Shown in pieces: positions 249 to 36,850 of a stretch of 64,000 nt of DNA; position 1 is the stretch's first letter; the number at the start of each line of letters is the position of its first letter. A model generated the notes under the pieces. The model saw only the letters and a list, made by a program, of their open reading frames with translations, made no database searches and was not told where the DNA came from. Made by a program: the position numbers and the translations under genes. Source of the stretch: Macrolepiota albuminosa (taxonomy: Eukaryota > Basidiomycota > Agaricomycetes > Agaricales > Agaricaceae); NCBI GenBank assembly GCA_027475525.1, contig JAMWFC010000124.1:1-64000 (forward strand), in the 5' to 3' direction.

Positions 249-299
249 CACTGCTGGCAGTGGAAGCTGTTTCCTTTGGAAAAAGTAAAAAAGAAACAT

Positions 300-630
300 G
301 TTATGCAACTTCCATGACATGTTTCCTTTAGAAATATGTAAGCATTCTCTCAGTGTAAAAGTTGAGAAAATGTTCACCTATTTCCTGACTGATTTCTGTT
401 GTAGAATAACACCTTTTTACTATCCTTTTCCCAGTGTAAGCAGACTGGAAATACTTGTAATTGTTCTTCCCATGTTTCTCAAAAATATAAATATCATATT
501 TCCCATAGAAATAGGCTTCAAAAGATTCAACCTCTTTCCTCAAATGTTTCCCTTGGATACTTTCATTGTTTTTCTTTGTGAAATATGACGTGAAAATCAT
601 AACACATATCCAATAGAAATATGTTGGAAA
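300..630. repeat. Subterminal AT-rich motif region of the left arm
   Basis: Related short motifs recur: TTTCCTTTAGAAATATG at 322-338, TTTCCCATAGAAATAGG at 499-515, TCCAATAGAAATATG at 609-623, and CAGTGTAA at two places. The mirror copies lie at 36469-36799. CACTA transposases bind subterminal repeat arrays, so a binding role is plausible but not shown. The open frames in this stretch are not credible genes. Confidence 0.4.
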
Positions 631-1124
631 GAAATAAATTTCAATTTTCAGAGTTAAATTGTCATGGAAACAGGAATCGACTCGATCAGGGAGCCCTTGA
701 AGGAGTCAATTTGAGAGTCGCCAGCGACTCGGCAGCAACACAATCAGAGAGACGATCAACGTCAATAAGTTGTAACGCAAACAATTGCTTTGAGGCTCAT
801 GTAACACGCACTATGAAAGTTATTTTGACAGTATTGCTATTTCACGTACATACACCGGTTGCATGGCTTGCAGACAGACTGATAAGTATGACATGTTAAT
901 TGTGTCAGCAGTAACGTGTGTCAGTGTTAGGTAATTCGTAGAAGAGTAGGTATGCAGAGGAAATACTCCTGTATAGTCTGAGACAAGTATGCACTCTGCT
1001 CAAGGCACATGTGGCGGAAAGGGAATGAGATACTATGTGTGATGTAAGAAGCATGATACAGTCTCTGAGTAATCGGTGTCTTTGGTGGCTACTGACTTCC
1101 AGCAGAACGTGGGTACCATTGCGG

Positions 1125-1351
1125 CTACTGGCTCAGGATCATGCGCACGAAAGATTCATAGTTGACGTTGCTGTCCCTGTCATGGATACAGAAGAAAATT
1201 TAGTGTCAGTTTTCCCAATCAAAATGCACAAACGCAGTTGGTGATGAGGGATATAAAACGATAGGAGCAGACTTACAGGCCAATTTGCATGCCTTTCAGC
1301 AACTCATCAGCTCCTTCATCCATCATCTTTTCTCCCCAATTGCGTGAGAAC
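1125..1351 (-). pseudogene. Captured calmodulin C-terminal fragment (left arm copy)
   Basis: This is the mirror of 35748-35974. On the minus strand an exon reading GEKMMDEGADELLKGMQIG is followed, after an intron-like GT..CAG stretch, by NYESFVRMILSQ and a stop. This corresponds to the end of calmodulin, with its last EF-hand loop and C-terminus. The loop has lost several calcium ligands. Upstream exons are absent. Confidence 0.55.
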
Positions 1352-2331
1352 GTATTTTAGCTGGTGAAATAAGAATGTCGGGACTTTTGGTACCTGTAAA
1401 TGGAGTGGTCGGCGTTGGGATCTCTTGACACATAAGGTTGTCGACATCGTGCATGGAGAGCTCAAGGATCTCAGAACAAGTCAATGAGTAAAGCAGAAAA
1501 CCCACCGAGTAAATGAAAGAGTGTTGTTGTGGTCCCCTGGGTCATCGCGAATGAGAAGCTGCATTGCAGTCCACTGAGTTCAGTCTTGTTCCGTGTGCGG
1601 AGCTCAACGGCAATACCTGTCATGTCTTTGATTGCACGCTTCAGCTTGCTGGCCAAGTCCAGACTTCAGGTCATCACAATGAACCCAAGTGTGGTGCACG
1701 TGTATTAATTAGCAAGACACAATGGTAAAGAATGCAAGACATACGAGAAACATCGGTGACCCTCCTCCTCGTTGATGAGAGTGACTCGCTGGTGAGAGCA
1801 GCCTGGTTGATAGAGATGTTGATTGACTCTGTGAGACGGCGGTCCTGCAAGGGCAAGCCACTGATCTTGGAAGACATATTACCAAGGTGAGGTTGATTTC
1901 GAACTATCGCGTTTGACCTTTCTCATGAGGTGAGTGCAGGAAAGTTGATCATTCATGTTGGACATGGTCTGCGACACTGGATGATTTGGTATGCCAGTGA
2001 GAGAGGTGTACGTTAGGTTCAAGATAACTTCCTTGGTCTCCAATTGCAGGGCGGGTTGAACTTCAGTAAAAAGCGAGATGAAGATGTGATGTGGGGGAGG
2101 TGGTGAGAACAAGGATGTGGGAAGCGGTGAAGAACAAGGACATTGTTGATCGTCACGATTGATTTGGACTGACTTACATATGTAGCAACAAAGTTTGGAA
2201 TGACATGCCCACCTGAGACAAAGATACTTCAAGCGATGTGCAACATAGAAGTTAGCATTCCATGCTCCGTGCTCAGTCAGGAAAAGAGTTTATTGTAGAT
2301 ACCTAACACAGACTAGTATTACGGGTATAAT

Positions 2332-3488
2332 TCAATATGAAGTAGACATTGTGTTCTCGTTGTCGGTTGGATGAGGATGAAGTAGAATAGAGGACACCAA
2401 TGTCTGCGCAAACTGGGAGTACAGATTCAAATTTGTTACAAGTTGACTTGCCTGATACAGAGTTGCAGCATTGTGTTCGTTGACGCCTCTCAACAATGGC
2501 GAGGAAGCCTTAAGTGCCGCTGGAATGTGCGCAGGTGTCAGAGAAGGGACCTGTGTGTTGAGAGGGTTATCATCCTTAGTCGGAGAGGACGGCGCAGTTG
2601 CGGTAACTGCCAAATCAATGGCACCCCTCAAGACCTCAAAGACACTCCTCACATCACCCGTCATAGCCGCAATCTTCTTCGTAAGGAGCATCAACGTAGG
2701 AGGCGGCAAGAACTTTTTCGCCGCTACAGCAGACTTTCCTTCATCATCAACATCAACATAAAGAGGTTGTAGCCAAGAGTGAAGAATTTGCTGCAGTTGA
2801 TTGGGTGTGTACGGAGCAAAGTGGCGCGTGCGGACATTACTGGCAGCTGTGACTGAGGATGTAGATGCAGAGGAAGAAGTGAGGGTATGTGTGTTGGCAA
2901 TGCCGATGAGTTGGACAGTAGATGGGGTGGAATCAGGCAATGAGAAGAGAGAAGTGAGTGATTGTGTCGTGGGTGTGATGTGATCGAGTTCATCAAGAAC
3001 TATGATGCTGAAGGCAACACCAATTAATTTTGCTGGAATTCCAAGGAATAGAGACTGACCATTTAGAATGATGATGTGATAAAAGAATCTCGACAGCATC
3101 TCTTCCCTTCGACTTCTAAGATCGCCCAGCCGACTTTGTTTTTTGTCTAACCTCAAGGTCTTCTAATTTGAGCATTGGTACTGTTGCATGTAGAGCGCAG
3201 AAGAGCACGAGCACGAGTATGGAGAGGCAGAAGAGCAGATGGAGGAGTTGGAGGAGGAGTGATAGCCAGCTTCCCAATTTGACTAACAGGGGTGGCAGGC
3301 GATGTAGAGAGTTCGGTATCTGTGGTATCTTCATGAGATTGCTTAAGATAGCACATGTTCAAGCACCTACCTGGCCTTGAGCGAACGGGTGTGACGGGTT
3401 CTGTGGGTCTGCATTCGTTGACGCCTCTCAACACATATAGGAAGTCAAGAACAAACAAGGAGTATGATCGCCGATTCATTTGAGTCAC
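2332..3488 (-). pseudogene. Captured CDC6/ORC1-like AAA+ ATPase fragment (left arm copy)
   Basis: This is the mirror copy of 33611-34767; see that entry for the domain description. It reads on the minus strand. The 20-bp direct repeats that bracket the fragment lie at 2476-2495 and 3414-3433. Confidence 0.6.
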
Positions 3489-3789
3489 TCATCCATCACA
3501 ATGCGCTCTCAGACTCTTTTCAAGAAATTGGTGTGTTCTCCTACTTATATATATGCAGACTGAAGCACAACCTGTTATTGATATTTCTTGTACATGAACT
3601 TACAAAGTCTGCAGGCTTCAGACTTATCACTGATAAAACCAGAGCTGAACTCGCTGAACCGCACACTCTATCCAACCAAACTCAGTACTTGTTATGTAAC
3701 TTGTGGAGACAAATGTATATCATAATATCATAAATTGTGTTGACAAGAAAGAAAACCTCAGAGCTTTAGAGCGGTAGTTTCTAAGAACC

Positions 3790-6700
3790 TCAAAGGTAAG
3801 TATTTACAACAGGTAAATGAGGCAATTCTACACTCACCCACGACAAGGATACAATGACGGTTGCATCTTCTCCTTCCCAGGATATGCAATGCTGAGCAAA
3901 GTGAGACTCGATGTCATCAAGGCAGCAGACTTCCAGAGAGGACTCTAAATCTGTTCCCCACAGTGAAGCTCTGAGACAAGGGAAATCGGAGTATGGATCA
4001 TGTTGAACTTGGATCCGTTTAATTGAGCGACCAACAAGCCACTTTCCTTGAAGGCTGTTACACTGTGCGATGGCAGATTCCTGGAACTCGACAACTTGAT
4101 CAATGCAGAATGGAATGTTGCTGTTGATGCGCAGTACACCGCTGTTTCCTTTGTGGCGGTTGAGTGCAGTGAAAGATCGATTGTTCACCATTGTGGAGTT
4201 TGAGAACATTGCATAAGCTGGGATGAGAGCATTAGGTCCAAGGACTTTCTGGAATGCAATTCGTAGAGGGCCAGGTAGTATCTCTCGTTTGTAGCCAACA
4301 TGAGAACCAGAGAGGTCATCATCATCTAATGTTGAATGAACATCTTGAGTGTCCAAAGGGCTACAAATCTGAGAGGGCATAAGCAACTTAAACATGTCAT
4401 AACATGCACGTATTGGTTGAGGACAAGTTGATTTTGTGAAGAAAGCGCGAAGGTTTGTCAAACGGTGCCATGATCTGGAAATGGTCTCTTCATATTCACC
4501 TAGGAGCCGTGTTACAAATTAACCTCAACAGGGCAAAGATCAGTATTCTAGTATCTTACCTTCTTTATAGTTTGTTGAAAAGCGTTGCAGAATCCCAATC
4601 ACACGTTCATAGGGATAAGCCCACCACCCATGTACAGGACCATACATTTGGAAGTATTCAGGTAGATGAAGGGCAATGTGATGGTTTGGATGGCACCTAT
4701 ACTCTGGAAAAAGGTTTTTCAACTGTTCGCGGTACTTAACCATATGGAAGATGTAGGCATCCGCATGTCGAGGGGACATGACTTGCGAAGATGCAATGAC
4801 AATCACAGACAAAAGATGCATTGTGAGTCGAAGAAGTTCCTGTCGGCGCTGAAATCTGGCACCTTCGAAGCTGGAATTACTCCATAACCGAATAAGAGTA
4901 ACTGGCAGGTATAATGAGCCAATGATGCGCCACTGATCTGATTTGAGCTTCCCGCAGGATGGGGTTCCAAGCGCATGAGGTGGTGACTGAATCCAAGAAG
5001 GTTTGACCAGGCTCTCTATATCTTTCCAGAGGACCTCCATCTCCTTGATGGTGAAGACAATACCATGTTGAAGGTGAGGAAGGTTTCTATCTTCACTGTT
5101 GCTTCCATCCAAGTCAGCAATTCCAATTCTTTTACTTCGCCTCAAGCGCTGAAAACAAGAAATAAGTATCTGCAGGGTTGGAGATCTGATGGCGTACCCA
5201 GTCAAGGAGTCGCTCGGCAACATGCATTTTTGTGAGAGGTTTGGTTGGAAGGGGTAAAGACGCATCTTTGCCTTGGGCGTCAACTGTCATTGGGATGCAG
5301 CCAATACCCTTTGCAACATAAATGAGAGAAGCTAGATGGGCATTACTCCACCGCTTGACCGTCTGTTTCAAGGCGATATGATCATTTTGGTCGAATTCAA
5401 TAGGTGTTTCCATCCAACGAATAATTTTCCGAACGCTTGTCTGTTCTTGAGGAGCTGCAGGAATGGGATTTTGAGGTGAATCTGATATCTCCACACGAAG
5501 TGACTCTAAAAGGGTTTGATGACCATGAAGTCGATTAGACGGATTGTAACCAAGAACCCCTTGAAAGTGCTCCTTGATTAATCCAAGAAACAGATTGTGC
5601 ATAGGGTCAATGATCAGGAAACGTGCAGGCTCGTAATATGGAAGACGAAGAAGTTCAGACCACCGAATGCCAGATGTGTCAAAGGACCTCTGTGCAGCTG
5701 CGTTTGAAGGTGCTGATCTCCATCTTTCTGCAAGCTGACGGCATTCTTCATTTGTTCGGCGGATCCAGGATTTGACATTAATGTCATCATATGTGTGATT
5801 GAACCTGGTACACCAGCACATAGAGCAGAAATACCGATGACTATGAGATGAAAAACCACCAACTTTTCGAGCTGCAGGTAAGTCACAAACCACTGCAACA
5901 AGAGCTGCCAAGACGAGACGGCCTACATCATAACTTGCAGTACGCGTGAAAAAGGTTCCATTCCATAGTTCAAGGAAGTCATCAACCAAGGGACGCAGAT
6001 ATGGATTTATCTGGGATTTCGATGGTTCTCCAGAAATGATTCCTGCAAGAAACATGTTTTCAGGTTTGTTTCGCACCTCGATTGGTAAGTTGAGGCATGA
6101 AACAGTGATTGCACCGATGGACACCTTCTTCCCAGCTTGTTTGTTTCCCAGCGGATTGAACCAATCCACACTGACTGCAAAGAGATAACGACCAGCATCT
6201 TTTCCTCCAGACATGCTGAAGTGTGTCGTTCCATCAGGACCTTTGAAATTTTGGATGACTGAACCTTGGAAAATGTCGTTAAGAAGTCCATCAGGCAATT
6301 CATTTTTCATCCGATCCCAAGCACTATCCATCATCGTTTCGAACCCTTGACGAGAAAGAACGCCAGCAAGCCAGTCCTTAAAATCATAGGAAATGTATGG
6401 CTTGATCGGGACGTAGATTGTACGACCTTCAATCTGTTTCTGGCAAACGAGAGCTCTGTTGCAAGCTGGGTGCCCGTAGGTCTTACGCTGACAAGTTTTG
6501 GGGTAAACAGGGATGCCATTATGAATAGTAGGCGCGTATATCTCATGACATTGGGAGCATGTAGCATAGATCGTTTTTTGGCTGTCAAGATTAAATTGGT
6601 CTGTGGAAGTTCGAATATCGCGTGGAAAATCACTGAGTATTGACTGGAAGTAGGGAAGGGATTCAATATTTGGAAGAAAGGACTGGATGCCAAGGGTGGA

Positions 6701-7594
6701 GGCAATAAGATTGTTTACGAGAGAAATGGCCTTGAGAACAGTTGTTTGAATGATAAATTGCGTTATTTGAAACAGCCAGGAACAACCTCGCCGAGGTAAG
6801 TTGAGAATGACGCTGCAGGTGACGGCCATGAGGATAGATATCTGGACCAAGGGCTTGCATTTCTGAAGGCTGTCAACAAAGTGATGACCTGACAATAACA
6901 CAGGTAAGTCCATGACTTGAAACAATAATTTCACTGCATGCTCACTAGTATCGTATCTTCTTCCTGAAGGAGCCCCTTTGCCCAATTCTCTCTTCAATAC
7001 CTCGCTCCAATATACCTTGATTTTTCCAAGCTTTTGCAATGACTCCTGAACCCTGTTCTCCAATTCTCTGTGGATCCCAAGTAACCTCTCATCGCCACCA
7101 CAGCCTGCCTGGACCAGCCTGAGTTTATCGCTCTCAGTATGAAAACGTGCTTCAATGGCATTGAGGTCATTAACGACTCCACAACCGTCAACATTATACT
7201 CCGGTGACAGGGAAGGCAATGAATGAGTGAGCGATTCAACCTTTTGAACGAGACCATGTAGTTGCTTGTCCATTTCCTCCAGGACCTTCGGTGTTCGTCC
7301 ACTTGGTGTTGAGCGAGTCGGTTCCAGTGGGGGATATACTTGACCTGCAGCAAGGGCAGCCACAATCTCTGTCTCTTGTGATCGAATGGTCCGGTCCTCG
7401 GTTTCAAGTGCCTGCTGAAGACCATTTTCTCCAAGGTGCAGTGATGCAAATTCTTCTGTAAATTTTGCACGTTGATCGTCAGCTTGATGTATGTTCCAAG
7501 TGCATCTAGGAAGATGATAGCCTTGCCCATTTTCTTCAAACTTTTGGAGGCACCCATGAGTGGTACATAGACATAGTTTCAGAGGGGGAGGCAT
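3790..7594 (-). CDS. Tnp2-type (Plavaka group) CACTA transposase
   Basis: This is the DNA transposase expected to cut and rejoin the outer element at its CACTG ends. The start chosen is the Met at 7594 (MPPPLKLCLC); a longer in-frame start exists at 7735. Two introns are visible: 5149-5197 (49 nt) and 4500-4559 (60 nt). Splicing gives about 1,231 residues. Order: an N-terminal Cys/His cluster, a coiled linker, the block SVDWFNPLGNK, the family hallmark DPMHNLFLGL, then VHGWWAYPYERVIG and GEYEETISRSW in the last exons, typical of fungal Tnp2 proteins. The reading frame is uninterrupted over three exons, so the gene may be active. It sits just inside the left inverted repeat. The exact DDE residues were not assigned. 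Confidence 0.85.
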
Positions 7595-7741
7595 GGAAAA
7601 GGACAAGATCAGTCTTCCTTGAAGTGAATATGGAGGAACACAAACAAGGCAAGAGATAAAAGGGGAAATCAACACGATTGCGATAGCCGACAACATGTCG
7701 TGCCATTGCTTCTTTGAGTGTTCAAAAACGGTCAAATATCA

Positions 7742-8131: not shown

Positions 8132-8189
8132 TTGTGGTTCGTCCTTCGTTCCTGCTCTTCCTTCCTACCTTTGTACTGGTGGGCCTGTG

Positions 8190-9840
8190 GTCTAAACCTA
8201 AACGAACCTTTTGACGCCAACACGACAACAGGTGAACACGTTGACCTCTTGGAGCTCGACTTACAGGCTGTAAAGAAACCAAAGCTGACTGTCGTTGCAT
8301 CCGTGCGTGACCTTATTGTCACCCATCTCTCCACTGAAATTGTCTACTGTGACTTGGCTGCACATTCCAGCGTTTTGCGTGTCCATAAAACGTGATGCTT
8401 TCAGAAGATCGACAGATACTGTATCTGTAATAACCTAGTATTCACATCTCCACTCATTTCTCAGCTATTGAGGGAGTCATTCATGAGCAAATACCCTTCC
8501 CTTCATGACTACGCCGCCTGGGAATGTGGGATGGCGGTTAGACGCTAGAGGGCGATCACAAGCAATGAAATGATTTATTTCACGTCTGATTTGTCGCATC
8601 CACCATGTGCACCGTGTGAACTTGATGTCCGGAACCGAGTTCTGGTATCATCTCAACAATTGTTCCTCATGGCACTGCAGTCTCTTGCGTCTTCTTTTGA
8701 GCTTGACCTATGGATGAGTCGAAGTAAGTTCCTATTTCCTGCTTGATCACTATGCTAGTGTCACCAAGTCCCTGTTACTTTACATGTAAGAATGTTACAA
8801 ATTTATTGAATGTACAATCACGTCTGCTCATGATACGGGTGCAAGGATTGCGCCTCATGCGCCCTGAAAAGGTCTGGCAGCCTATCGTCACTGTCCAAGT
8901 GGACCAGCATCACTGTCATGAGACTAAAATGGGTGTTGACGGTCAGAATCCAAATCTGAAGCAAGGTTTTGAGTTGTACGTCTTGATTTTTAATCACAAA
9001 GCAGTCGAACTTCAACTAAATTGACAGTATGTTGCCAAACGCGCTATATCCAGTCGAGGAAGACCACAGAACTATCAAGATACGCTTGCCCACATGCATT
9101 GCGCCATCAGCTCCGCACTCGCATACATGGATACACGATATTTCTCTCTTTGCTCCCACTTCACACGGAGAAGATCGGGATATGACATTCGTTGAGAGTG
9201 TCTTGGCCTCATTCACGACGTATAATGAACTCAAGAACGCGAGGACTGGATCGGAGTTTGAGAAGGTGTTTTGATGGACTTGTGTCGGGTGGTATGGTAA
9301 GTCACTCCAACGTTGTCCTTGTGCCTTTCTCTCACCTCCAACCTACTAGCTCGTAGCCCTAGGCACGTACGCACCCTCTCATATCACCCACAGTGTGAAC
9401 ACCTCAGTATTCGCTATTGGCCCCGATGCAGTCTTTGATGTCGAATCATATACACGCAGTGCAATCGCAGCAAGCAGCGTGTGCACCGGACTCGGCATCG
9501 CATGCGATGCGTGGTTTCTCCTCCGGTACACCTGGGCTCCTCTCCCTACCTTCATTGTACGTCCTTCTACTCTCCCTAGCCACCCCCCAAAATTGCCGCC
9601 ACCACACAGACCTGCGCACGCGACATCTACTCGACATACATGTCCTTCTCCCTCTCCGCATGTGTTCCCGCACTCTGCCTGTTTCTCTCGGCCCTTGCAC
9701 TCATGCTCTTTATGGCCCTCGTGTCGTTTGCAGTGTGGCCTGCTAGCGTTGGCCATGTGTTTTGGCATGGGCGCCGTGATGGCACTGCAGTTTCTTGTGT
9801 ATGGTGCGGTATGGGCTGGTGATTGTGTAGGAAATGGGCC
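8190..9840 (+). pseudogene. Decayed C2-domain/membrane protein remnant (host-derived)
   Basis: Pieces of one agaric multigene-family protein appear in order but in changing frames. About 8200-8340 reads VDLLELDLQAVKKPKLTVV. About 8820-8990 reads LLMIRVQGLRLMRPEKVW, a C2-like beta segment. About 9210-9270 reads TTYNELKNARTGSEFEKVF. About 9390-9560 reads TSVFAIGPDAVFDVESYTR followed by a hydrophobic stretch. After an intron-like gap, 9627-9770 encodes a second long hydrophobic helix (SLSACVPALCLFLSALALM). Stops and frame changes separate the pieces, so it is not translatable as one protein. It lies between the transposase and the WD40 gene and looks like host sequence captured by the outer element. 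Family assignment rests on memory of similar agaric proteins. Confidence 0.45.
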
Positions 9841-9884
9841 AGGGAAGTGGGCAGGGCGTTCAGGCGTGTGATTCGAGTGGGGGA

Positions 9885-10800
9885 TGGAAGGTTTGCTGAG
9901 AAGAGTCATGCGAATGAGACAGAAAAGATACAGAGATGAGTGGGGAGGCCTGTTTGATCGGATAATGTTTTCACTTATTTTACTTATTGTATTGAATCAC
10001 TTCCCATCAAATTTGCGTATAGCGTTATTTGAGATGTATTTGCTTTACTATCTGGTATTAACTGTTGAAATTCTATTGAACATGCTCTATGAGAAGGTCC
10101 AATGGCGGTCGTAGTAATCAGACTCGGAGATCGCATCCGAATTCAGAAGATACGATATCGATGTTTAAATGTGGAGCAGAGAAATCACAGCATTCATTCC
10201 TCACCCACCATTCAAAAAAGCCATACATTCCGATCGCTTCCTTCTCATCCTGATTTTAACCCCTGGATGTATGGCAAACTACAGATGAGGCACTCTTATC
10301 AAAGACGTCCTATCCCATGAAGCTATCAAGTTCGAGACTTTCTCTCTTATATACGCCTGAGTCTAGTCTACACAACGGATGATGATAGTAGATACACTAT
10401 TGGTAGCCTGAGCACTGGTAAAGGTTGGTTGAAGAGGGGTTGAGATTGTGCTAGTAACAGACAAAACCAACGGCGAGGCATTTATTGAGAAGTCTTCGCC
10501 TTGACTTCCAAAGTTAACAGAGGTCTGGGCAGCTTGGTTAATGTTGCTCCCAACATGACCAACAAACTTGACCCAGATTCAGTGAAGTACTAATGGTTAA
10601 CAGAAACATAAACCTACCTGCCAGAAATGAGGCATCCAAAACGAGTGGGTGGTTAACAAAATAATCGGCAGTGATTGGAAAAACCACACAAGCAGGGTAT
10701 CAATCAGGGTGCGATTTTTGGTTTGTGATGGACGGACTGGATTTTGATATGCTTGAAAGTTGGGTGTTCCAAGTCTGTCGACAAAAGTATAATCCTAATA
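9885..10800. other. Spacer without recognisable gene
   Basis: Only short overlapping open frames are present, none with a recognisable domain. The stretch lies downstream of the membrane remnant and downstream of the convergent WD40 gene. Confidence 0.4.
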
Positions 10801-10802
10801 AA

Positions 10803-12200
10803 TTAAAAAGGTAAAGATGAGATAACATTCCAGCTGGCACGAATGGAACTCACAACTTTCTCCCATACATAAATTGTGGGCTTGTTGCTGGAAGAACCAG
10901 ACACGATGAGATGCCGATGGTCACCGAGGCTAACAGCTGCAATAGCTTGAAACCTATCAGAGGCTACAATATGGTTAGTCCAGAAACAATAATGGAAGCA
11001 AGTTAGCTTACGATTCTCCGAAATCAGCTCCTGACACAGCCTATCTGTGGCTAAGTCAATGATTTGGACAAATTGTTGATCACTTCCACAAACAGCAAGC
11101 TTGCCACCTTCAGCATAAGCTACACCTTTGATGACTCGCTCGATAGATTTTGAGGCAATTGAGGAGTGAAAATTCCCTGCAGGGAAGCGATAGAGATCGA
11201 AGTTATTGGTACAGAGATTGTCAACGAGTAACATACTCCCATCTGGAGATATGGCTGCGTTCCCGCTGTGGCCAAATACTTGAACATCACCTCAATAAAT
11301 GACAAATAAGTACCTGAGTACTTACATTCCACCTAAAAGTAATCGTCTCCATTCAATTGTTGAATCTTCACCATTTTGGCAGATGCTAATCTTCAATGTT
11401 AGAAGTCTGCAGCGTTGTTTATAGTCAAATTCTTACATCTCGCCTCCTTCGAGAAAACAGGATAGAAGGTATCGTTTTCCAGATCCAAAAAAATGCAGAG
11501 AGCGAGGTATATCTGCATTATTAACCTCCCAAAGAAGGATTAGGGTTTCTAGACAGACATGAGAACATGTGCAAGCAGGTGGATGTGGATTCTTACTTCT
11601 GCGAAGCTTGAACACTTTGATTTGACCAGAGTGGCTAGCAAGAGCAAGTCTTCCATTAACATTATCGTATGCTTGAGCCTCAACAGGATCATTAACGTTA
11701 AATGGAAAAAAGGTTGTCGCCTCATTCCAAACAAACTTCTGACAAATGGATTGACTATTAGCAGATGCTTCTAAGAAAGAGCAGAAAATAAAGCTTACCG
11801 TTCCTTCCATTGCTTTAGGACAGAGCGTATGAGATCCTCTACCGGTACCAATACTAATCCAGTCCGAAAAACCCTCAGGGGACAAATCGTGATGCAGCCA
11901 CTCTATTGATGTGATCTGTGCCCAGTTTGGGCTTTGCAACGTTTGGATGCATTGTGAATTGGTGAGATCCCACACTCGGACAGTGTCATCATCACCTGTA
12001 CACTTGCAGTGTCAGTAAATATTTGTTGTTCAGAATAAGAGCTCAGACCTCCAGAAAGTAAGACGCGACCATTTGGAGAGAAAACTAAGCAATTGATTGC
12101 TTCCTGAGAGCCTTCAAGTCGGTAGCGAAGACTGTAGAATCGAGACTATGTGGAAGACATAAGAGACACCATACTTGTTGTTTAGGTATTGACCTACCAT
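10803..12200 (-). CDS. WD40-repeat protein, transposon cargo
   Basis: This is predicted to fold as a beta-propeller; its partner is unknown. The first exon is the bare ATG at 12198-12200, followed by an intron to 12147 and then SRFYSLRYRLEGSQEAINC. Repeat signatures follow in order: SPNGRVLLSGG and DDDTVRVWDL (split by an intron), WISIGTGRG, ALASHSGQIKVF, then GGKLAVCGSDQQ and VSGSSSNKPTIYVWE near the C-terminus. At least five short introns are needed, including a 48-nt in-frame one near 11545-11592. A 28-nt stretch near 11790-11820 looks like an intron but is too short, so it is probably read through. The gene is oriented like the transposase and looks intact. Agaric genomes carry many such WD40 paralogs. 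Its position inside the inverted repeats makes it cargo or a functional partner. Confidence 0.75.
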
Positions 12201-26132: not shown

Positions 26133-26140
26133 CGTCTTGG
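26133..26140. repeat. 8-bp target-site duplication CGTCTTGG, right
   Basis: This is a perfect direct repeat of 12348-12355, directly outside the right KDZ terminus. Confidence 0.75.
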
Positions 26141-26276: not shown

Positions 26277-27210
26277 ATGTCTTATATTGAGAAACATCGC
26301 CCTCTCATCTCACATCGTGTCAGATTTAGATCAGCTCCGTATCCTCCGCGAGCCTTGATCACCCATCGAATCATCTTTGAGGAGCAGCTCCAAACTTCAA
26401 CTAGGCGCAACATGTTGGATGAGGAAAACCAGTCAAGCCTTGGGCCTCGAGCTCACGAGCGTGTACCGGGAGGACAAACAGGGATACAAGTGCACAGTGA
26501 TGGTGCCAGTGAACACCGTCAAAACACTCGAGCACAAATGACTCAGACACAGACACCTATAGTCACAATCAATGAACAAGAGATTCAGCAATCACGACGT
26601 GTTACCATCCAAGAATCTGACGAGAATCGTGTTGGACCAAGTGCTCCACTCAGACGATCAGGGACTATGCGACTTCGGTCCGCTCTACCCGAAATCCAAC
26701 ACTTATCAAGCAATCAGGAACCTTCCATTGTCAGAAAGCCTCAAGGAGAACCCGGTCGCCCTAATGCAGGGGGGCATAATGTTGAAGGAGAACTATCGAG
26801 GCTGGATTGGTCAAAGGCTCAGTACAATGCTTTATATGTGAGTTCGAGTTTGCACCCTGTTTTATCCTGCTCATACTCGTTACTTTGTCATTATCAGGAT
26901 GCTGTGAAGGCACAGGCAAGTGAAAGACTCAATACGTCAAAATCTTTTCGCTATCAAAAGCAGGAGGTTGTTAGAGCTATCTGCGAATTGGTTAGAAACT
27001 CTCTTTTGATTTTTTTTTCATATTCATATCTCTATGCTATAGTTAACCAATGACTCTCGATGGCCATCACTTGAACACTATGAGGAGTGCTGGCCAGTGC
27101 GAAGCCTTCTCAAGATGATATTGAAGACTGGGACTGACGCGCACAAGCGTGCTCAGGCAAAACGTGTCATGCAAGTAGTGGCATCTCAGGGACACGGTGT
27201 TTCTATGTAG
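26277..27210 (+). CDS. Small conserved-looking cargo gene of unknown function
   Basis: The gene starts at 26277 (MSYIEKHRPL); a second Met at 26412 (MLDEENQ) is a possible alternative. After a polar, unordered N-terminal part comes LDWSKAQYNALY, an intron, DAVKAQASERLNTSKSFRYQ, a second intron at about 26992-27042, then LTNDSRWPSLEHYEECWPVR and MQVVASQGHGVSM with the stop at 27208-27210. The C-terminal 100 residues look like a compact helical domain. No known motif was recognised. It is divergent from the WD40 gene across the KDZ insertion and belongs to the outer element's cargo. Both introns have clean GT..AG ends and no internal stop was seen. Confidence 0.55.
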
Positions 27211-27304: not shown

Positions 27305-27640
27305 TACAAGTTCAAAGTATTGACAAGCAGGACAAGCCATACTCAATGCCAGCCATAAGCGCCTTAAAATCACTCGCCTGAAAATCCTGGCCAATCCCCT
27401 GCCCCTCCATTGTCGTATACATATACGTCCAAATCAGCGGTATCACACTGCGACTTATGCCCCCACCCTCATCGCTGATCTTGATCGTGATGTCCTCACA
27501 CCCTTCAATGATGACAACTTTGATCGTGTGGTACGCCATGTCCTCCTCCAGCCCAAACCACTCCACTACTACCTGCAGCGATTTCTTCAACAGCTCAAAG
27601 TAGATGTGCGAGAGGTGCCTGTAGACTCAATGTTAAAACC
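27305..27640 (-). pseudogene. Fragment of a mitochondrial PDK/BCKDK-type kinase gene
   Basis: The minus strand reads SHIYFELLKKSLQVVVEW, then EDITIKISDEGGGISRSVIP and WTYMYTTMEGQG. These are the N-box, the G1 (DxGGG) box and the G2 region of pyruvate or branched-chain dehydrogenase kinases, GHKL-fold enzymes of the mitochondrial matrix. The N-box Asn expected in ELLKNS is Lys here, and the frame ends soon after QASDFKALMAGIEYGL. Only the ATP-binding part remains. It is host sequence captured by the outer element and not a working kinase. Confidence 0.7.
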
Positions 27641-27728
27641 CAAGACCTAACTAAAAACACACAAGTGAGTTCCATGTACTGTAAGGGGTAGGTATAAGTA
27701 TAGTATGCGACATGAGTTATGTATGACT

Positions 27729-27978: not shown

Positions 27979-28818
27979 CTATAAGTTCCGTACCTCCATC
28001 AGTAAATCCTCCAAATTAACCAGGTTTCTATCGACTTTCTCAATATCTCCTCTACAAGTTGGGCATGTCGCAAAGCGTCTAGATGCAATCCATCCATCCA
28101 GGCATTCTTGACAATAAAGATGGCCACAAGTCAAACTGAAGATGTATTAGTTTGTTATCACTGATATATCATGAATGTAGCTCTTACGTTGTTGTTGGTG
28201 TTTGAGCAATATCACGACAAATACAACAATAGGTGAAATTCTTCAAGACGGAGACCAGCTTGAATTTGGTGCTGAGACAAGGAGCAAATGACTTGATCAA
28301 GTGACATACAGACTGATAGATGCGAAACAAGTGGTCTCGCGACTCCTTCGCATGTGATAGGTCCTGCAAAAAGTGAGGAATAATAAAAGTTAAGAGGGAT
28401 ATGACGCACTTTTCTAAGCTCATCAATCTCTACAGACCTTGCCTCTCTCAGCTCCTCCAGCTGTCTCTGCACATCTACATGCGACTAAGAAAGAGATAGT
28501 GTAAGGAGAAAGTTTGCTAAAATCAATATAAAAAAGTTTACCACTTGTAATGTATGCAATGAGGCATCAATATTGTTTTTTTCCTCCAGTACTTTGGCTA
28601 AGGCATGCCGTAGAACATTTATCTGTAGATGAGTGATAAGTGGAAGAATCACAGCAATTATTGAACACAATTCTCACATCGTTACTATCAGAGTTTGGTG
28701 TCAAAGATGCAGATCCTGCTTGATGAGGCTGACCAAAGACAGCATTATATAGTTCTGCATGTTTAAATCGTCGATAAGGCTGGATACTTCCTGATTTAAT
28801 GGCTTTCTTGGGGACCAT
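27979..28818 (-). CDS. Coiled-coil RING-finger protein (putative E3 ubiquitin ligase), cargo
   Basis: The start at 28818 reads MVPKKAIKSGSIQPYRR. Several short exons follow: a helical region (INVLRHALAKVLEEKNNIDA, then QRQLEELREARSVEIDELRK) and, after an intron, a C3HC4 RING: CCICRDI, intron, LTCGHLYCQECLDGW, CPTCRGDI. The protein ends NLVNLEDLLMEVRNL with the stop at 27979. All eight zinc ligands are present, so an E3 ligase role is likely from the family; the substrate is unknown. The gene is divergent from the coiled-coil gene starting at 29487. The first 20 codons lie inside the sequence repeated across the N gap, so the promoter reaches into the gap region. Confidence 0.75.
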
Positions 28819-29039
28819 GCTAGGAATTGTAACCGTGAATCAAATACAGATACTCAGGATTTNNNNNNNNNNNNNNNNNNNNNNNNNNNNNNNNNNNNNN
28901 NNNNNNNNNNNNNNNNNNNNNNNNNNNNNNNNNNNNNNNNNNNNNNNNNNNNNNNNNNNNNNACTTCCTGATTTAATGGCTTTCTTGGGGACCATGCTAG
29001 GAATTGTAACCGTGAATCAAATACAGATACTCAGGATTT
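28786..29039. repeat. 77-bp direct repeat across the N gap
   Basis: 28786-28862 equals 28963-29039. Both copies hold the start codon region of the RING gene. The length is the same as the four exact tandem copies elsewhere in the window. Confidence 0.9.
28863..28962. other. Assembly gap of exactly 100 N
   Basis: The 77 bases before the gap (28786-28862) are identical to the 77 bases after it (28963-29039). The gap is therefore probably a failed merge of overlapping contigs, with no missing sequence. Confidence 0.9.
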
Positions 29040-29486
29040 GATACAGATACTACTGACCCAAAAACCTTGACTCCACACTGGAAGCTGGGAGTGAAAGATG
29101 GACGGAATTTAGAAGGTCAATTGACAAAGTACAAGGCGCTTAAACATAGTTGAAGGTGTCCTCCTGGGTGTCCTCAGGGTCAAATAGCAAAGTACAAGAC
29201 AATACAAGGAAATAAGCATGTGACGATGTAAAAAGCCCATTTGGTTGATCCGAGTACGCAGGCAGATCTCTGACTTGGACAGGATCGGTCATTTTCTCAA
29301 ATGTTTGTTCTCTTACAATGCTCAAAGAGATTAGGTGAGTACAATAACATTCACCATATCAGGCATTCATGATGCTGCCGTCTTCACCAGTTCACAATCC
29401 ATGTATAAAAGGACAAGTGTCGACACGATGTGAGGTTACAATTTTGAACTGTGTACACAACACCTGGACTTGTACCTGCACTCTCA

Positions 29487-32400
29487 ATGCCTCTCAATTT
29501 CTTATTTGGAGCCCCTTTCTCCAACTTCAATACTCCTCAGGATCCTGGTGACACTTCTGGATTGATTATCGACAATGGTAGTCCCCGACATACAGATTCT
29601 TCGACAGATTCCTCAAATAGCTCTTCCTCCAATAACACTGTACCAATCATTGAGGAGGTTGTGCTGCAGTCAGGAGCGTCATCTGTGATGGGTATCTCAG
29701 ACCAGGCAAGTCTTCTGATTCTTTGCATTCACTGAAACTACATTGTGACATCTGCTGGCAGGGAGCGAACTACAATGGGCCAGCCAACGAGGCCATAGAT
29801 ATTACAGAGAATAAGAAACTTGGCATTAGTACCCTTTAGTGGTTTGGTAAGAGATGACGTTCCATGTTCTATACTTCCTCTATAATTAATTCCAATCTTA
29901 GATGATTTTCAAAAGCGCCGCAGTGATACGACCAATGACCTTACCAATTTGAGAGAGGATGAAATCGCTGCTGATGGAGTAGGTGTCTGCTGTCACTGTA
30001 TCTCAGTGTTTACTTAATAGACCATATACTATCAGAGCTACCGCCTTTGTACCAAGTTCCGAATTATTGCTGATCCCAGACTGGCTATTCGTAATCGTCA
30101 AGTGAGCTTGTGTTTTGACATGTTATTCTTAATCTCACTACACAGTGTAGCTTTCAAATCAGCTCCGTGAAGAAAAGGCAAAAGTCAACTTACTGGCTGT
30201 TCAACTTCGCCAAGTGAGTCTATGTATGGTTTGATCAGCTGAAATTACAGTCTCTCACATATTTGCTGTAGTCTCAGAATGATCAAGTACGAGCTGCCTG
30301 GATGGAAGGAGGCATATTTGACAGCATAGTCGAGCAATCAGATTCTGGACTCAACTCTACACAGAATCTCACTACTCAACCTTCTGAGACCAGCTCCCAT
30401 ATTCTCTCAGTCGCTTCAGCTCAGCAAGATGACGCATTTCAGCAACTTCAAGATGTTTTACATGAGCAAGATTGTCTTCGACAGGAGCTAGAATGCTTTC
30501 AGCAAGACATCCATGAACAAGAGCAGCATTTCCAGGAAGAACATCAAGCTCTTTCTGAACAGTCAGCTATGCAAATCCAGGAGGCTTTAGAGAACAGAGA
30601 TCGTAATCATTTGCAATCTCTGCAAGCTGAAGTTGATCGGTTGCAGGCTGTGCATCAGCAGAAAGTCTCGGAGTACACTCAGGCTAGGGAGGAGATGGAG
30701 CACAGATTAAGAGAACTGGAGACGATACAAATTCAGGCGAGTAAAATGTATATTCTTCTTTAGGATTGACATTAATGGTTATTTAAAATAGGAGCTTCGA
30801 GAACGTGAGGCAGAGTTTCAGCAGGAGTTGAACGAACGACTTTGTCAAGAACACCAGAAGTCTGTACAAACTATTGCTGAGGTCAATCAACGCTTGGAAG
30901 AACAAGATCGCAACCACCAGAAAGCTCGCCAGTCTGAAATTACTCGTTTGCAAGCCGAGCACAAGCAACAAATGGCTAAGGCCACTAGGGCTCATCAACA
31001 GATGGAAACCAGAATTCAAGAGTTGGAACGAGTTCAATCGCAGGTAAGCATGCCTTTTCTTCTATGTATCTTGATAATGACGGTCTTTGTATAGGAGTCA
31101 AGCTTGATTGAGCAGGCTCGCCTAGCTGAACAAGCAGCTGCTCGCTCTGATGAAGCATATGAAACTATCAGAAACATGGATATGCATAACAGGGAGGTCA
31201 TTGTAGATCTCGAAGCTCAGCTCGCAGCTCGTAACGAAAGGCTGGAGGCAAGTTTAGATAATCTCATTATGTTCACCTGTTAACAATATACGCAGCAACT
31301 TCAAGCTCAAATTACTTTACACAGCTCGCATCCTGTTCCAGCCATGACTCAAGAATCTCCCCATGCTTCTCAAGACGAGTCTTCCTCTAACACCAACCCA
31401 TGCACTAACTTTTCGGCACGCATGTGTGAAAAACTTCCTGCAGATCCTCAATTGGCTAGGACAAAGGCATGTTTAGTCCTTTACAGCTATACTTATCTCT
31501 TATTCTTTCTCGTAGGTCTTGAAGATAAACAAAGACAGGCAAACTGAGAGACACTCCTTTGACATTGCAAGCCCTGAAGAAACAGTTACTCCTCCTCTTC
31601 AAATTCCTCGCTTATATTCTTCCTCCAATCCTCAAACACCACGTCTACGTCTTTCTACTCCTAAGCCATCTACTTTGAGATTTACTCCCCAGTCATCCCC
31701 TCTTCGGCCATCATCTTCTATTCAACAAGCACCTCCTGTGTCTCTACTCTTATCCGCCTCCATGCCTTATGATACAACTCCAGGTTGCAGTTTAGCTGAT
31801 CGAGATGATAGCCTTGTCGATCGAACAGGGACTCCTTCTCATCAAAGGGATGGTTCAAGCGCTTACAGAAGGAATGAACGCTCTCAATCTTCTTATGCTG
31901 CAAGTCCAATGCCTGCAAGTCCAACGCCTTCTAGAGAAGAACCTGGGAATCCACTTTCTTCCATTCTGGCCAATCTTGTCGGTTCTGTCAACTCACTTCA
32001 AGAGGAGATGGCTGAGACTCGCAGTGCTGTTGCAGCAATGAATAGCTCACCAAATGCTGCTACCGGATTTTATGTAGTTCCAGGATTGTCTCATCATTCT
32101 CCCTTCAAGGCACTTTTCACACCACGACAAAAAGATCAAGGGCGTACCGATATGATGGTAAGCTACACTGTCAACTTGACTTGAGTTGTGCTTATACCGC
32201 TATTAGAAAATTATTCGCGAGGCAATCAGGATCAAGCTAGATATCAAACATGACAAGGACATCAAGACGGTAACTCAAAATTGCCAACACATGGCAACAC
32301 CTGAGGAGGTCGACAATTTTGACCAGGGAACAATTCCTGCTCCTTCACTAAGTCCTTTCCGTCCTTACTGGGATGACATCCATTGTCTCTGGAATGGTTC

Positions 32401-33376
32401 TTTAGCTGACCAAGTCATAGACGAGCTCTTGGCTGCTGGGCATGTGTTTGATGGCAGGTCAAGGAAAGACGTGAAAGACTACTTTTTTCAACGCCTATCA
32501 ACACTCAGGAAAGAGCTCAAACGACAAACACCAGGGCTTAATGAAACATCGCAACAAGCAATGCAACGAGCCAATACACAACACATGATCACACTAGCAA
32601 GAAATCGTGTCCAGACGCACCAATCAACAGCAAGTAATTTACTTTTGCTAAACTATGGCCCATTTGACGGTTTCTTAAAACAGCTATTCCAATCTCGACA
32701 ACAGATTTGTGCAGAGGGCCTCAATAAACCAGATCATGCTATCTGGGAGTCACTTCTCCGGCTTGTCATTGTACTTCAAACAGATGGTCATAGCTCAGAT
32801 GAAACTGAAGATGAAGAGAGGGGTATCTATCATGTTCGGTCACGACCATGGTGCAGCTCACAAGTGACTGAGCTGCTGAAATACATTGACAGCTACAGAG
32901 AGACGACAAACAATTATGGCAATCGGCATGCTGGAAAGGCTTTTCGAACATGACTTCGCCTTGTTCAGCCCCCACTCACACAGGAACGACCTATCGCTGG
33001 ACTCTCTCAGAACTGCTACGATGCCAATTTTCTTGATACACGACCTCAAAATCACCTTGATCACTTGGATGTTCAGGAAGTCATCTAGTTACCTGAATTC
33101 AAAGAGTACGTACTCTTCTTTGTAATCAAAGTCAGCTTATAATTGAAACTGCTTCTAGACAGCAGGTGCAGTCTGGATTACGTCTTATCAGGCCATTGGA
33201 GTCACGCCATTTATCATTGCACCATATATCTACTCCATCACGTCGTGTATCATCACGCCATTTATCTACTCCATCACATCATATATCGACTTCACGTCAT
33301 TCATATTATAAGTAAGTCCTCTGTTTCTTTCTTGACTTTGAGCTCACAATTTTGTAGCAGTGATTCAGAAGAGTAG
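29487..33376 (+). pseudogene. Long coiled-coil cargo gene with two in-frame stops near its end
   Basis: The gene starts at 29487 with MPLNFLFGAPFSNFNTPQ. About a dozen exons follow: an acidic Ser-rich part, short exons (SYRLCTKFRIIADPRLAIRN), and a Gln/Glu-rich coiled coil from about 30300 to 31260 (EQEQHFQEEHQALSEQ, NQRLEEQDRNHQKARQ). Then come a Pro/Ser linker and a globular region (32220-33000) with YFFQRLSTLRKELKRQTPG and DGHSSDETEDEERGIYHVR. In that frame a TGA at 32951-32953 and a TAG at 33086-33088 interrupt sequence that otherwise continues well (PIAGLSQNCYDANFLDTRP). The last exon ends SDSEE. Each stop could be a C-to-T change of CGA or CAG. The family is common in agaric genomes near transposons, by memory only. 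A protein truncated at 32953 may still be made. Confidence 0.6.
33200..33305 (+). repeat. Short degenerate tandem repeat rich in CATCAC
   Basis: About 24-26 bp units around TTTATCTACTCCATCAC recur three to four times and encode HLSTPS-like repeats at the end of the coiled-coil gene. They end about 80 bp before the inner edge of the right inverted repeat. Confidence 0.5.
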
Positions 33377-33610
33377 AGCTTCCCATTTGTCTCCACAAGT
33401 TACATAACAAGTACTGAGTTTGGTTGGATAGAGTGTGCGGTTCAGCGAGTTCAGCTCTGGTTTTATCAGTGATAAGTCTGAAGCCTGCAGACTTTGTAAG
33501 TTCATGTACAAGAAATATCAATAACAGGTTGTGCTTCAGTCTGCATATATATAAGTAGGAGAACACACCAATTTCTTGAAAAGAGTCTGAGAGCGCATTG
33601 TGATGGATGA

Positions 33611-34767
33611 GTGACTCAAATGAATCGGCGATCATACTCCTTGTTTGTTCTTGACTTCCTATATGTGTTGAGAGGCGTCAACGAATGCAGACCCACAGAA
33701 CCCGTCACACCCGTTCGCTCAAGGCCAGGTAGGTGCTTGAACATGTGCTATCTTAAGCAATCTCATGAAGATACCACAGATACCGAACTCTCTACATCGC
33801 CTGCCACCCCTGTTAGTCAAATTGGGAAGCTGGCTATCACTCCTCCTCCAACTCCTCCATCTGCTCTTCTGCCTCTCCATACTCGTGCTCGTGCTCTTCT
33901 GCGCTCTACATGCAACAGTACCAATGCTCAAATTAGAAGACCTTGAGGTTAGACAAAAAACAAAGTCGGCTGGGCGATCTTAGAAGTCGAAGGGAAGAGA
34001 TGCTGTCGAGATTCTTTTATCACATCATCATTCTAAATGGTCAGTCTCTATTCCTTGGAATTCCAGCAAAATTAATTGGTGTTGCCTTCAGCATCATAGT
34101 TCTTGATGAACTCGATCACATCACACCCACGACACAATCACTCACTTCTCTCTTCTCATTGCCTGATTCCACCCCATCTACTGTCCAACTCATCGGCATT
34201 GCCAACACACATACCCTCACTTCTTCCTCTGCATCTACATCCTCAGTCACAGCTGCCAGTAATGTCCGCACGCGCCACTTTGCTCCGTACACACCCAATC
34301 AACTGCAGCAAATTCTTCACTCTTGGCTACAACCTCTTTATGTTGATGTTGATGATGAAGGAAAGTCTGCTGTAGCGGCGAAAAAGTTCTTGCCGCCTCC
34401 TACGTTGATGCTCCTTACGAAGAAGATTGCGGCTATGACGGGTGATGTGAGGAGTGTCTTTGAGGTCTTGAGGGGTGCCATTGATTTGGCAGTTACCGCA
34501 ACTGCGCCGTCCTCTCCGACTAAGGATGATAACCCTCTCAACACACAGGTCCCTTCTCTGACACCTGCGCACATTCCAGCGGCACTTAAGGCTTCCTCGC
34601 CATTGTTGAGAGGCGTCAACGAACACAATGCTGCAACTCTGTATCAGGCAAGTCAACTTGTAACAAATTTGAATCTGTACTCCCAGTTTGCGCAGACATT
34701 GGTGTCCTCTATTCTACTTCATCCTCATCCAACCGACAACGAGAACACAATGTCTACTTCATATTGA
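33611..34767 (+). pseudogene. Captured CDC6/ORC1-like AAA+ ATPase fragment (right arm copy)
   Basis: The N-terminal part reads ECRPTEPVTPVRSRPGR and LLPLHTRARALLRSTCN, like the start of fungal CDC6, the loader of the replicative helicase. The Walker A segment is unrecognisable (GIPAKLIGVA where GxPGTGKT is expected), and much of the ATPase core is missing. Walker B is intact (IIVLDELDHI), sensor 1 is present (IGIANTHTL), and the winged-helix-side part follows (LMLLTKKIAAMTGDVRSVFE). Frame breaks near 33945 also rule out function. The fragment lies between two 20-bp direct repeats (33666-33685 and 34604-34623), which may mark its capture. Confidence 0.65.
33666..34623. repeat. 20-bp direct repeats bracketing the CDC6 fragment
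   Basis: TGTTGAGAGGCGTCAACGAA occurs at 33666-33685 and 34604-34623. The word has its own inverted arms GTTGA/TCAAC. The mirror copies are at 3414-3433 and 2476-2495. Confidence 0.85.
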
Positions 34768-34859
34768 ATTATACCCGTAATACTAGTCTGTGTTAGGTAT
34801 CTACAATAAACTCTTTTCCTGACTGAGCACGGAGCATGGAATGCTAACTTCTATGTTGC

Positions 34860-35640
34860 ACATCGCTTGAAGTATCTTTGTCTCAGGTGGGCATGTCATT
34901 CCAAACTTTGTTGCTACATATGTAAGTCAGTCCAAATCAATCGTGACGATCAACAATGTCCTTGTTCTTCACCGCTTCCCACATCCTTGTTCTCACCACC
35001 TCCCCCACATCACATCTTCATCTCGCTTTTTACTGAAGTTCAACCCGCCCTGCAATTGGAGACCAAGGAAGTTATCTTGAACCTAACGTACACCTCTCTC
35101 ACTGGCATACCAAATCATCCAGTGTCGCAGACCATGTCCAACATGAATGATCAACTTTCCTGCACTCACCTCATGAGAAAGGTCAAACGCGATAGTTCGA
35201 AATCAACCTCACCTTGGTAATATGTCTTCCAAGATCAGTGGCTTGCCCTTGCAGGACCGCCGTCTCACAGAGTCAATCAACATCTCTATCAACCAGGCTG
35301 CTCTCACCAGCGAGTCACTCTCATCAACGAGGAGGAGGGTCACCGATGTTTCTCGTATGTCTTGCATTCTTTACCATTGTGTCTTGCTAATTAATACACG
35401 TGCACCACACTTGGGTTCATTGTGATGACCTGAAGTCTGGACTTGGCCAGCAAGCTGAAGCGTGCAATCAAAGACATGACAGGTATTGCCGTTGAGCTCC
35501 GCACACGGAACAAGACTGAACTCAGTGGACTGCAATGCAGCTTCTCATTCGCGATGACCCAGGGGACCACAACAACACTCTTTCATTTACTCGGTGGGTT
35601 TTCTGCTTTACTCATTGACTTGTTCTGAGATCCTTGAGCT
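34860..35640 (+). pseudogene. Unidentified host-like coding pieces inside the right arm
   Basis: Several well-formed short readings follow one another: LFTEVQPALQLETKEVILNL (about 35025), SSKISGLPLQDRRLTESINI (35225) and ASKLKRAIKDMTGIAVELRT (35446). They look like exons of one or more captured host genes, but I could not name them. The left arm carries the same pieces inverted at 1459-2239. No continuous frame joins them. Confidence 0.35.
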
Positions 35641-35747
35641 CTCCATGCACGATGTCGACAACCTTATGTGTCAAGAGATCCCAACGCCGACCACTCCATT
35701 TACAGGTACCAAAAGTCCCGACATTCTTATTTCACCAGCTAAAATAC

Positions 35748-35974
35748 GTTCTCACGCAATTGGGGAGAAAAGATGATGGATGAAGGAGCTGATGAGTTGC
35801 TGAAAGGCATGCAAATTGGCCTGTAAGTCTGCTCCTATCGTTTTATATCCCTCATCACCAACTGCGTTTGTGCATTTTGATTGGGAAAACTGACACTAAA
35901 TTTTCTTCTGTATCCATGACAGGGACAGCAACGTCAACTATGAATCTTTCGTGCGCATGATCCTGAGCCAGTAG
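35748..35974 (+). pseudogene. Captured calmodulin C-terminal fragment (right arm copy)
   Basis: GEKMMDEGADELLKGMQIG is followed by an intron (GTAAGT at 35824 to CAG at about 35922) and then DSNVNYESFVRMILSQ with a stop at 35972-35974. This matches the end of calmodulin, with helix E of the last EF hand, the loop and helix F, but several calcium-ligand residues are changed. Upstream coding sequence is frame-shifted or missing. Confidence 0.55.
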
Positions 35975-36850
35975 CCGCAATGGTACCCACGTTCTGCTGG
36001 AAGTCAGTAGCCACCAAAGACACCGATTACTCAGAGACTGTATCATGCTTCTTACATCACACATAGTATCTCATTCCCTTTCCGCCACATGTGCCTTGAG
36101 CAGAGTGCATACTTGTCTCAGACTATACAGGAGTATTTCCTCTGCATACCTACTCTTCTACGAATTACCTAACACTGACACACGTTACTGCTGACACAAT
36201 TAACATGTCATACTTATCAGTCTGTCTGCAAGCCATGCAACCGGTGTATGTACGTGAAATAGCAATACTGTCAAAATAACTTTCATAGTGCGTGTTAAAT
36301 GAGCCTCAAAGCAATTGTTTGCGTTACAACTTATTGACGTTGATCGTCTCTCTGATTGTGTTGCTGCCGAGTCGCTGGCGACTCTCAAATTGACTCCTTC
36401 AAGGGCTCCCTGATCGAGTCGATTCCTGTTTCCATGACAATTTAACTCTGAAAATTGAAATTTATTTCTTTCCAACATATTTCTATTGGATATGTGTTAT
36501 GATTTTCACGTCATATTTCACAAAGAAAAACAATGAAAGTATCCAAGGGAAACATTTGAGGAAAGAGGTTGAATCTTTTGAAGCCTATTTCTATGGGAAA
36601 TATGATATTTATATTTTTGAGAAACATGGGAAGAACAATTACAAGTATTTCCAGTCTGCTTACACTGGGAAAAGGATAGTAAAAAGGTGTTATTCTACAA
36701 CAGAAATCAGTCAGGAAATAGGTGAACATTTTCTCAACTTTTACACTGAGAGAATGCTTACATATTTCTAAAGGAAACATGTCATGGAAGTTGCATAACA
36801 TGTTTCTTTTTTACTTTTTCCAAAGGAAACAGCTTCCGCTGCCAGCAGTG

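Follow-up and report, generated by a model that had tools for sequence, protein, structure and literature searches.

A putative giant EnSpm/CACTA transposon with kilobase-long inverted arms and a nested KDZ transposon in the genome of Macrolepiota albuminosa

The common picture of a CACTA element is one of short terminal inverted repeats (TIRs) and one or two genes. Relatives of these elements occur in fungi (PMC1636069), where EnSpm transposons are described as having CAC..GTG termini and 3-bp target-site duplications (TSDs), and Plavaka transposons as ending in CATCA..TGATG or TGT..ACA (Kojima, 2025; PMC12730594). Here we characterized a 36.6-kb element occupying positions 249-36850 of a 64,000-nt stretch (the window), which forms the start of contig JAMWFC010000124.1 (C93 below) in the Macrolepiota albuminosa assembly GCA_027475525.1. 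The genome searched comprises 100.1 Mb in 129 contigs, to which all C-numbers refer. It is highly probable that the element is a multi-gene giant of the EnSpm/CACTA superfamily, moved into a long terminal repeat (LTR) by cut-and-paste transposition through its Tnp2 transposase, with a nested Kyakuja-Dileera-Zisupton (KDZ) transposon in its interior and with arms most likely extended when one end was copied over the opposite end.

The element shares CAC..GTG termini, a 3-bp TSD and an EnSpm-type transposase with the fungal EnSpm/CACTA elements, but is unlike them, so far as that account describes them (PMC12730594), in its giant size, its conserved accessory genes (WD40 and coiled-coil) and its kilobase arms. 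Enlarged En/Spm elements of 16-20 kb, with 4-5 open reading frames (ORFs) instead of the usual 1-2, have been described in the red alga Chondrus crispus (Kojima et al., 2013, cited in PMC6431247). These resemble the window element in enlargement and ORF number, although in a different host, and the available part of that account makes no mention of long arms. Galileo, a Drosophila element of the P superfamily, has TIRs of up to ~1.26 kb for which extension by gene conversion was proposed (Marzo et al., 2013; PMC3573991). Likenesses to Galileo are the long, variable TIRs that recruit internal sequence and the small elements made of two TIRs; it differs in superfamily and in arm length (1.6-3.6 kb or more here), and no giant multi-gene element is described in the available part of that work. 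Plant CACTA elements such as Pack-CACTA and soybean Tgm-Express are described as carrying captured host gene fragments, as does the window element, but here a giant element that encodes its own transposase has the fragment in each of its two arms. Among the literature titles and opening parts of abstracts listed, none described a kilobase-armed giant CACTA element in fungi.

The outer ends of the element, CACTGCTGGCAG...CTGCCAGCAGTG (i.e., CACTG...CAGTG), and the 3-bp CAA that flanks them were present as an earlier interpretation made from the letters alone (the sequence-only reading) had claimed. That interpretation also described exact arms of 3,467 bp; the length and the inversion hold, but the arms, which align without gaps, differ at two bases (arm positions 13 and 553; 99.94% identity). 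When joined at a single CAA, the flanks of the element align across the junction with three LTR copies at 87-90% identity (C45:1789670, C45:1794937, and C110:5154166; TGTTGG...CTAACA, 375-396 bp), each of which contains one CAA. The empty site with a single CAA that had been proposed as a check was thus found, in the form of three paralogous LTR copies. Since the flanks are the two halves of an LTR meeting at a 3-bp TSD, and three empty copies hold a single CAA, the two arm ends are those of one and the same insertion. A simple duplication is thereby excluded, and an artefact of contig fold-back is very improbable. In such an artefact, one arm would be a false copy of the other, created at the start of C93. 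The contig does begin just 248 bp outside the element, the arms are near-perfect and the assembly holds junction artefacts like those of a k=77 assembler; however, two halves of one LTR at a 3-bp TSD are not expected of a fold-back, and the arms differ at 2 positions. Moreover, elements of like architecture on C45 and C47 have different arms, those on C45 differing by 812 bp in length and by 0.3-0.7% in sequence. Segmental duplication and a folded-back contig were both rejected on the strength of the single-CAA empty sites, and judged by its flanks the element is an insertion into an LTR. The bases outside the interrupted LTR, CTCTC and CCCTC, look like a slightly changed duplication from the insertion of the LTR itself. 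AGGTG flanks the C110 copy left and right, as would be expected of a solo LTR. On C45, an LTR pair at 1789670-1795334 (starts 5.3 kb apart, ~5.7 kb in total) has CATAG on both outer sides.

The Tnp2 gene inside the element was modeled as 3 exons that encode 1,265 aa with no internal stop, separated by GT..AG introns of 49 and 60 bp. Its product matched PF02992 (Transposase_21) at 40.0 bits (cut-off 28.6) and DUF4218 at 27.4 bits (cut-off 27), which bears out the earlier claim of a Tnp2-type transposase. Residues D525, D619, C638, C641, and H714 are invariant when the query is aligned with 7 homologues (8 of 8 sequences). With the Tnp2 alignment as query, two solved structures matched at E≤1 (best E=0.018), and neither is a transposase by name. 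Short direct and inverted repeats over several hundred nucleotides at the ends are a described CACTA feature (PMC8978399) and are present here: within the first 1,052 arm bases examined, TGTTTCC/GGAAA repeats in both orientations occupy the outer ~0.6 kb, and similar subterminal motifs occur in the arm of the C47 element. Short TIRs, which are usual for EnSpm/CACTA elements without defining them, are replaced here by arms of 3,467 bp. With CAC..GTG termini, a 3-bp TSD and a Transposase_21 domain, all of which fit, the element is filed as EnSpm/CACTA and not as Plavaka. The sequence-only reading had favored the Plavaka branch, and a weak PF18759 (Plavaka) match speaks for it; however, at 13.6 bits this match falls short of the curated cut-off (26.3), and the termini are unlike both types that Kojima (2025; PMC12730594) gives for Plavaka, leaving that placement improbable. 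By its anatomy, cut-and-paste movement through Tnp2 is well supported: the transposase would recognize the CACTG ends and the subterminal repeats, excise the element and reinsert it with a 3-bp staggered cut, the landing site in this case being the LTR. Giant elements of the Starship type have a DUF3435 tyrosine-recombinase captain; among 32 selected window ORFs scanned by Pfam, there was no DUF3435 match and no TET/JBP domain.

The ends of the element belong to a family. The 12-mer CACTGCTGGCAG occurs 110 times genome-wide vs. 9 times for a reversed control, and an extended 26-base end pattern (≤2 mismatches) occurs 108 times vs. 0, indicating that these are element ends and not chance matches. 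Both ends were found in 7 short elements of 834-930 bp among 58 loci examined. Two of these represent one insertion on two contigs, hence 6 insertions, and a perfect 3-bp TSD accompanies five of them. By BLAST, three of the seven have discrete TIRs of 329-331 bp with 93-95% identity, and each of the remaining four matches its own reverse complement across almost the full length at 79-86%. A second giant element, C47:511403-542984 (31.6 kb), has CACTGCTGGCAG ends, the TSD AAG, a related Tnp2 and arms of 1,638 bp with 99.76% identity; one of its ends contains a 77/78-bp duplication like those at contig junctions. The proposed search for further copies sharing the ends thus yielded small elements whose ends and TSD length agree with those of the window element, as well as another giant. 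These relatives, taken together with the 3-bp TSD, the empty sites and the uninterrupted Tnp2 model, uphold a CACTA-class insertion with kilobase arms. At C107, another inverted pair of CACTGCTGGCAG ends (28976 and 89999) lies 61 kb apart.

Kilobase arms are not confined to two elements. In a third relative of 20 kb, C45:1316687-1336762, the left arm measures 3,606 bp and the right arm 4,418 bp, with 99.3-99.7% identity; 812 bp are absent from the left arm, and ~20 further positions differ. These arms include part of the coiled-coil gene and of the 32207 block described below. The arms of the C47 and window elements have in common only the terminal 66 bp, at 79-80%. The three elements are thus related, but the contents of their kilobase arms are not. 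Long arms therefore seem to have arisen more than once, and this recurrence among related giants is the new point of the analysis. With at least three large related elements whose arms measure 1.6-3.6 kb or longer, a single genome allows arm growth to be compared case by case.

A captured gene fragment gives some indication of when the arms became alike. Arm positions 2245-3158 match two host loci (C90:2313110 and C112:24417) in two stretches, at 96-97% and 91-92% identity. The host loci are 99.1% alike and therefore probably alleles. The open frame read on the C90 locus comprises 616 aa with GSPGTGKT; in Pfam its AAA domains are above cut-off, and the Cdc6/ORC lid (26.1 bits vs. 27) and Cdc6_C are below it. 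Among solved structures (PDB), CDC6 proteins (E=7e-22 and 2e-20) came ahead of ORC1 (E=2.9e-12), and the host gene is called CDC6-like for this reason. Between the two arm stretches 235 bp are missing, a length that is not a multiple of three and that includes the Walker A region, and the arm ORF alone gave weak, below cut-off matches to orc1/cdc6 models. The arm copy appears to be a dead fragment. It is the sole capture identified from the sequence and, sitting within both arms, exemplifies a host replication gene fragment carried as two inverted copies. A partial copy of the arm at C65:631531 matches arm positions 1-90 and 14-1500 at 98-99% and then runs into an N gap. The arms diverge from one another by 0.06%, from the C65 copy by 2.0% (30/1,487) and from the host CDC6-like gene by 3-9%, which indicates that the two arms were homogenized well after the capture, or else by the assembly.

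Most likely, the kilobase arms are an extended form of the family TIR, which measures ~330 bp in the small elements. Repair after excision, or recombination between inverted ends, would have copied one end and its neighboring sequence onto the other; the copied sequence would here have included the captured CDC6-like fragment, and both ends would have become alike. By analogy with Galileo, we infer that such copying is the likeliest origin of the arms, and the Galileo proposal of TIR extension by end-copying becomes testable in another superfamily. Alternatively, gene conversion might preserve the likeness of the long arms as an old selected feature, for example as a dense array of binding sites for the transposase. 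The presence of long arms in three elements, the small elements that fold back almost entirely and the subterminal repeats agree with this idea, but the repeats lie within the outer ~0.6 kb of the part of the window arm examined, and arm contents are unrelated between elements past 66 bp, which indicates that most of the arm is not conserved sequence; we regard it as somewhat unlikely. Nearly identical, inverted arms would also be expected of a composite transposon in which two inverted 3.5-kb CACTA copies mobilize the intervening DNA in the manner of insertion sequence (IS) composites, and the C45 element, a relative of the interior, has ends other than CACTG. However, the inner arm borders carry no CACTG/CAGTG end, the interior itself encodes Tnp2, and the C47 element joins the same Tnp2 lineage to CACTG ends. 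For want of end sequences at the inner borders, an IS-like composite was judged decidedly unlikely. No solo 3.5-kb arm copy with its own TSD was found among the matches to the 40 candidates scored out of 145.

The interior of the element is interrupted by a second transposon of 13.8 kb. It encodes a KDZ transposase with a CxC cysteine cluster (CxC1 and KDZ domains at 13223-14423; PF18758, E=2.7e-25, and PF18802, E=3.5e-07, both above cut-off), and a Ulp1-like protease match at 16247-16741 is just under cut-off. Its 8-bp TSD, CGTCTTGG, agrees with the 7-8 bp described for KDZ elements (PMC12730594). A copy at C53:677196-691061 is near-identical, mostly at ~99% or more and at 95% over a minisatellite stretch, and has an 8-bp TSD of its own, ATATTACA, on both sides; partial copies with 92-93% identity occur on C105, C111, and C95. 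The insertion point is in the short interval that separates the WD40 gene from its neighbor starting at 26277, and the equivalent interval is uninterrupted in the C45 relative, with ~0.3 kb between two matched blocks. These features characterize the 13.8 kb as an independent transposon inserted into the CACTA element, neither cargo nor part of it. The possibility that this stretch is cargo was rejected given its own TSD and the C53 copy with a different one. The KDZ transposon would have inserted between the WD40 gene and its divergent neighbor before or after the CACTA element reached the LTR. Without it, the CACTA element measures ~22.8 kb. A triple nest (KDZ in CACTA in LTR) with base-level boundaries makes a clean case for annotation.

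Outside the KDZ transposon, most of the interior genes compared recur in diverged relatives with ~65-72% DNA identity. In C114:6395012-6408930 the gene order is as in the window, with no room for the KDZ element; further relatives are C114:5133348-5138800 and parts on C47 and C59. The ratio of non-synonymous to synonymous substitution rates (dN/dS) was calculated for 13 window ORFs against 9 relative sequences, which cover the relatives in part and two of which overlap on C47; saturated, intron-crossing and stop-crossing rows were excluded. For Tnp2 it was 0.10-0.37 where unsaturated, and 0.10-0.15 when the main blocks were compared with C45 and C47. The WD40 gene gave 0.05-0.19 and the gene at 26277 gave 0.13-0.30 (against C45 and C114), again where unsaturated. 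The right-hand stretch contains four ORFs (30272-30760, 30792-31091, 31516-32181, and 32207-32822), which probably form one multi-exon gene, with unsaturated ratios of 0.14-0.31 for the coiled-coil part, 0.29-0.41 for ORF 31516 and 0.10-0.24 for the 32207 block. All 3 homologues of its C-terminal half, from 8,000 candidates scored, bear Termitomyces names, which suggests an agaric host near Termitomyces, and Pfam gave no match to them up to E=0.01; among the entries listed for Termitomyces transposons in the literature, nothing was on point. Given their low dN/dS and their recurrence in diverged relatives, Tnp2, WD40, coiled-coil and the other recurring genes look like core genes and would account for most of what was taken as cargo outside the KDZ transposon. 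ORFs 27324-27647 and 29448-29732 and the CDC6-like fragment had no tblastn match in the 9 relative sequences. Of the sequence-only reading's giant, cargo-carrying transposon with a whole set of cargo genes, the transposon insertion and the presence of interior genes stand, but the cargo mostly does not: 13.8 kb is a nested KDZ transposon and most other genes compared are core-like.

Several observations weigh against this account as a whole, or against recent transposition in particular. For the outer interior, the candidates scored (40 of 98, 40 of 155, and 11 of 11) included no second copy that was near-identical. No allelic empty site emerged either: queries with the right flank (37204-46000 and 48000-56800) gave no long match above 95%, returning repeats and similar stretches only. 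One small element lacks a TSD. The ends of the C45 relative are not CACTG and have no clear TSD, its WD40/26277 block is inverted relative to Tnp2, and its arm has no match to the window arm. Finally, the window arms are 100% alike between positions 554 and 3467, which could in part be due to arm differences collapsed by a k=77 graph assembler; such collapse hardly explains the C45 arms, with their ~20 differing positions and 812-bp difference. The corresponding sequence on C53 lacks the 77-bp duplication found at 21281-21434, and for this reason the 77-bp duplications and the 100-N gap between identical 77-mers (Table 1) look like k=77 contig-junction artefacts. If all junctions inside the element are artefacts, its true length would be ~36.3 kb, or ~250 bp less.

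More tentatively, and with somewhat less than even confidence, we suggest that a lineage of giant agaric CACTA elements repeatedly rebuilds its ends as kilobase arms from end-adjacent sequence, including captured host genes. If so, TIRs would be a renewable structure and not inherited sequence, and the WD40 and coiled-coil proteins might help to move DNA far above the usual CACTA size.

Table 1. Coordinates of features in the 64,000-nt window.
Feature	Position	Strand	Details
Interrupted LTR, left part	205-248	+	Starts TGTTGGAATCC; continuous with right flank in C45 and C110 copies
TSD of CACTA element, left copy	246-248		CAA
Left inverted arm	249-3715		3,467 bp; CACTGCTGGCAG end
Subterminal short repeats	268-630	both orientations	TGTTTCCTTTGGAAA-like; mirrored in right arm
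Host CDC6-like fragment, left arm	2493-3406	-	
Tnp2 transposase gene	3790-7696	-	Exons 5136-7696, 4560-5086, 3790-4499 (gene model)
Segment with matches elsewhere	8817-9963		71-83% to C122:2421719-2423528 and C62:1757788-1759676
WD40-repeat gene	10618-12200	-	Kept in relatives; exon borders from gene model
KDZ TSD, left copy	12348-12355		CGTCTTGG, 8 bp
Nested KDZ-type transposon	12356-26132	+	13,777 bp; ends CACCT...GGGTG
77-bp tandem duplications	21281-21434, 42106-42259, 45251-45410, 47710-47864		Exact or one mismatch
KDZ TSD, right copy	26133-26140		CGTCTTGG, 8 bp
Conserved gene	26277-26990	+	Diverging from WD40 gene
Assembly junction	28786-29039		77-mer, 100 N (28863-28962), same 77-mer
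Coiled-coil-like stretch and conserved C-terminal block	30272-32822	+	
Right inverted arm	33384-36850		3,467 bp
Host CDC6-like fragment, right arm	33693-34606	+	Mirrored from left-arm coordinates
TSD of CACTA element, right copy	36851-36853		CAA
Interrupted LTR, right part	36851-37167	+	Ends CTAACA

Among the other features, the segment that matches C122 and C62, which are likely allelic loci, is perhaps an older captured piece. The pairs C23:386394-387227 and C104:64297-65130, C90 and C112, and C122 and C62 represent the same insertions or genes, at ~98.5-99% where measured. Since each of these occurs on two contigs, part of the genome seems to be represented by both haplotypes in the assembly. 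Right of the element, 39109-43350 and 48000-56800 contain repeats present on several to many contigs at ~65-95% identity.

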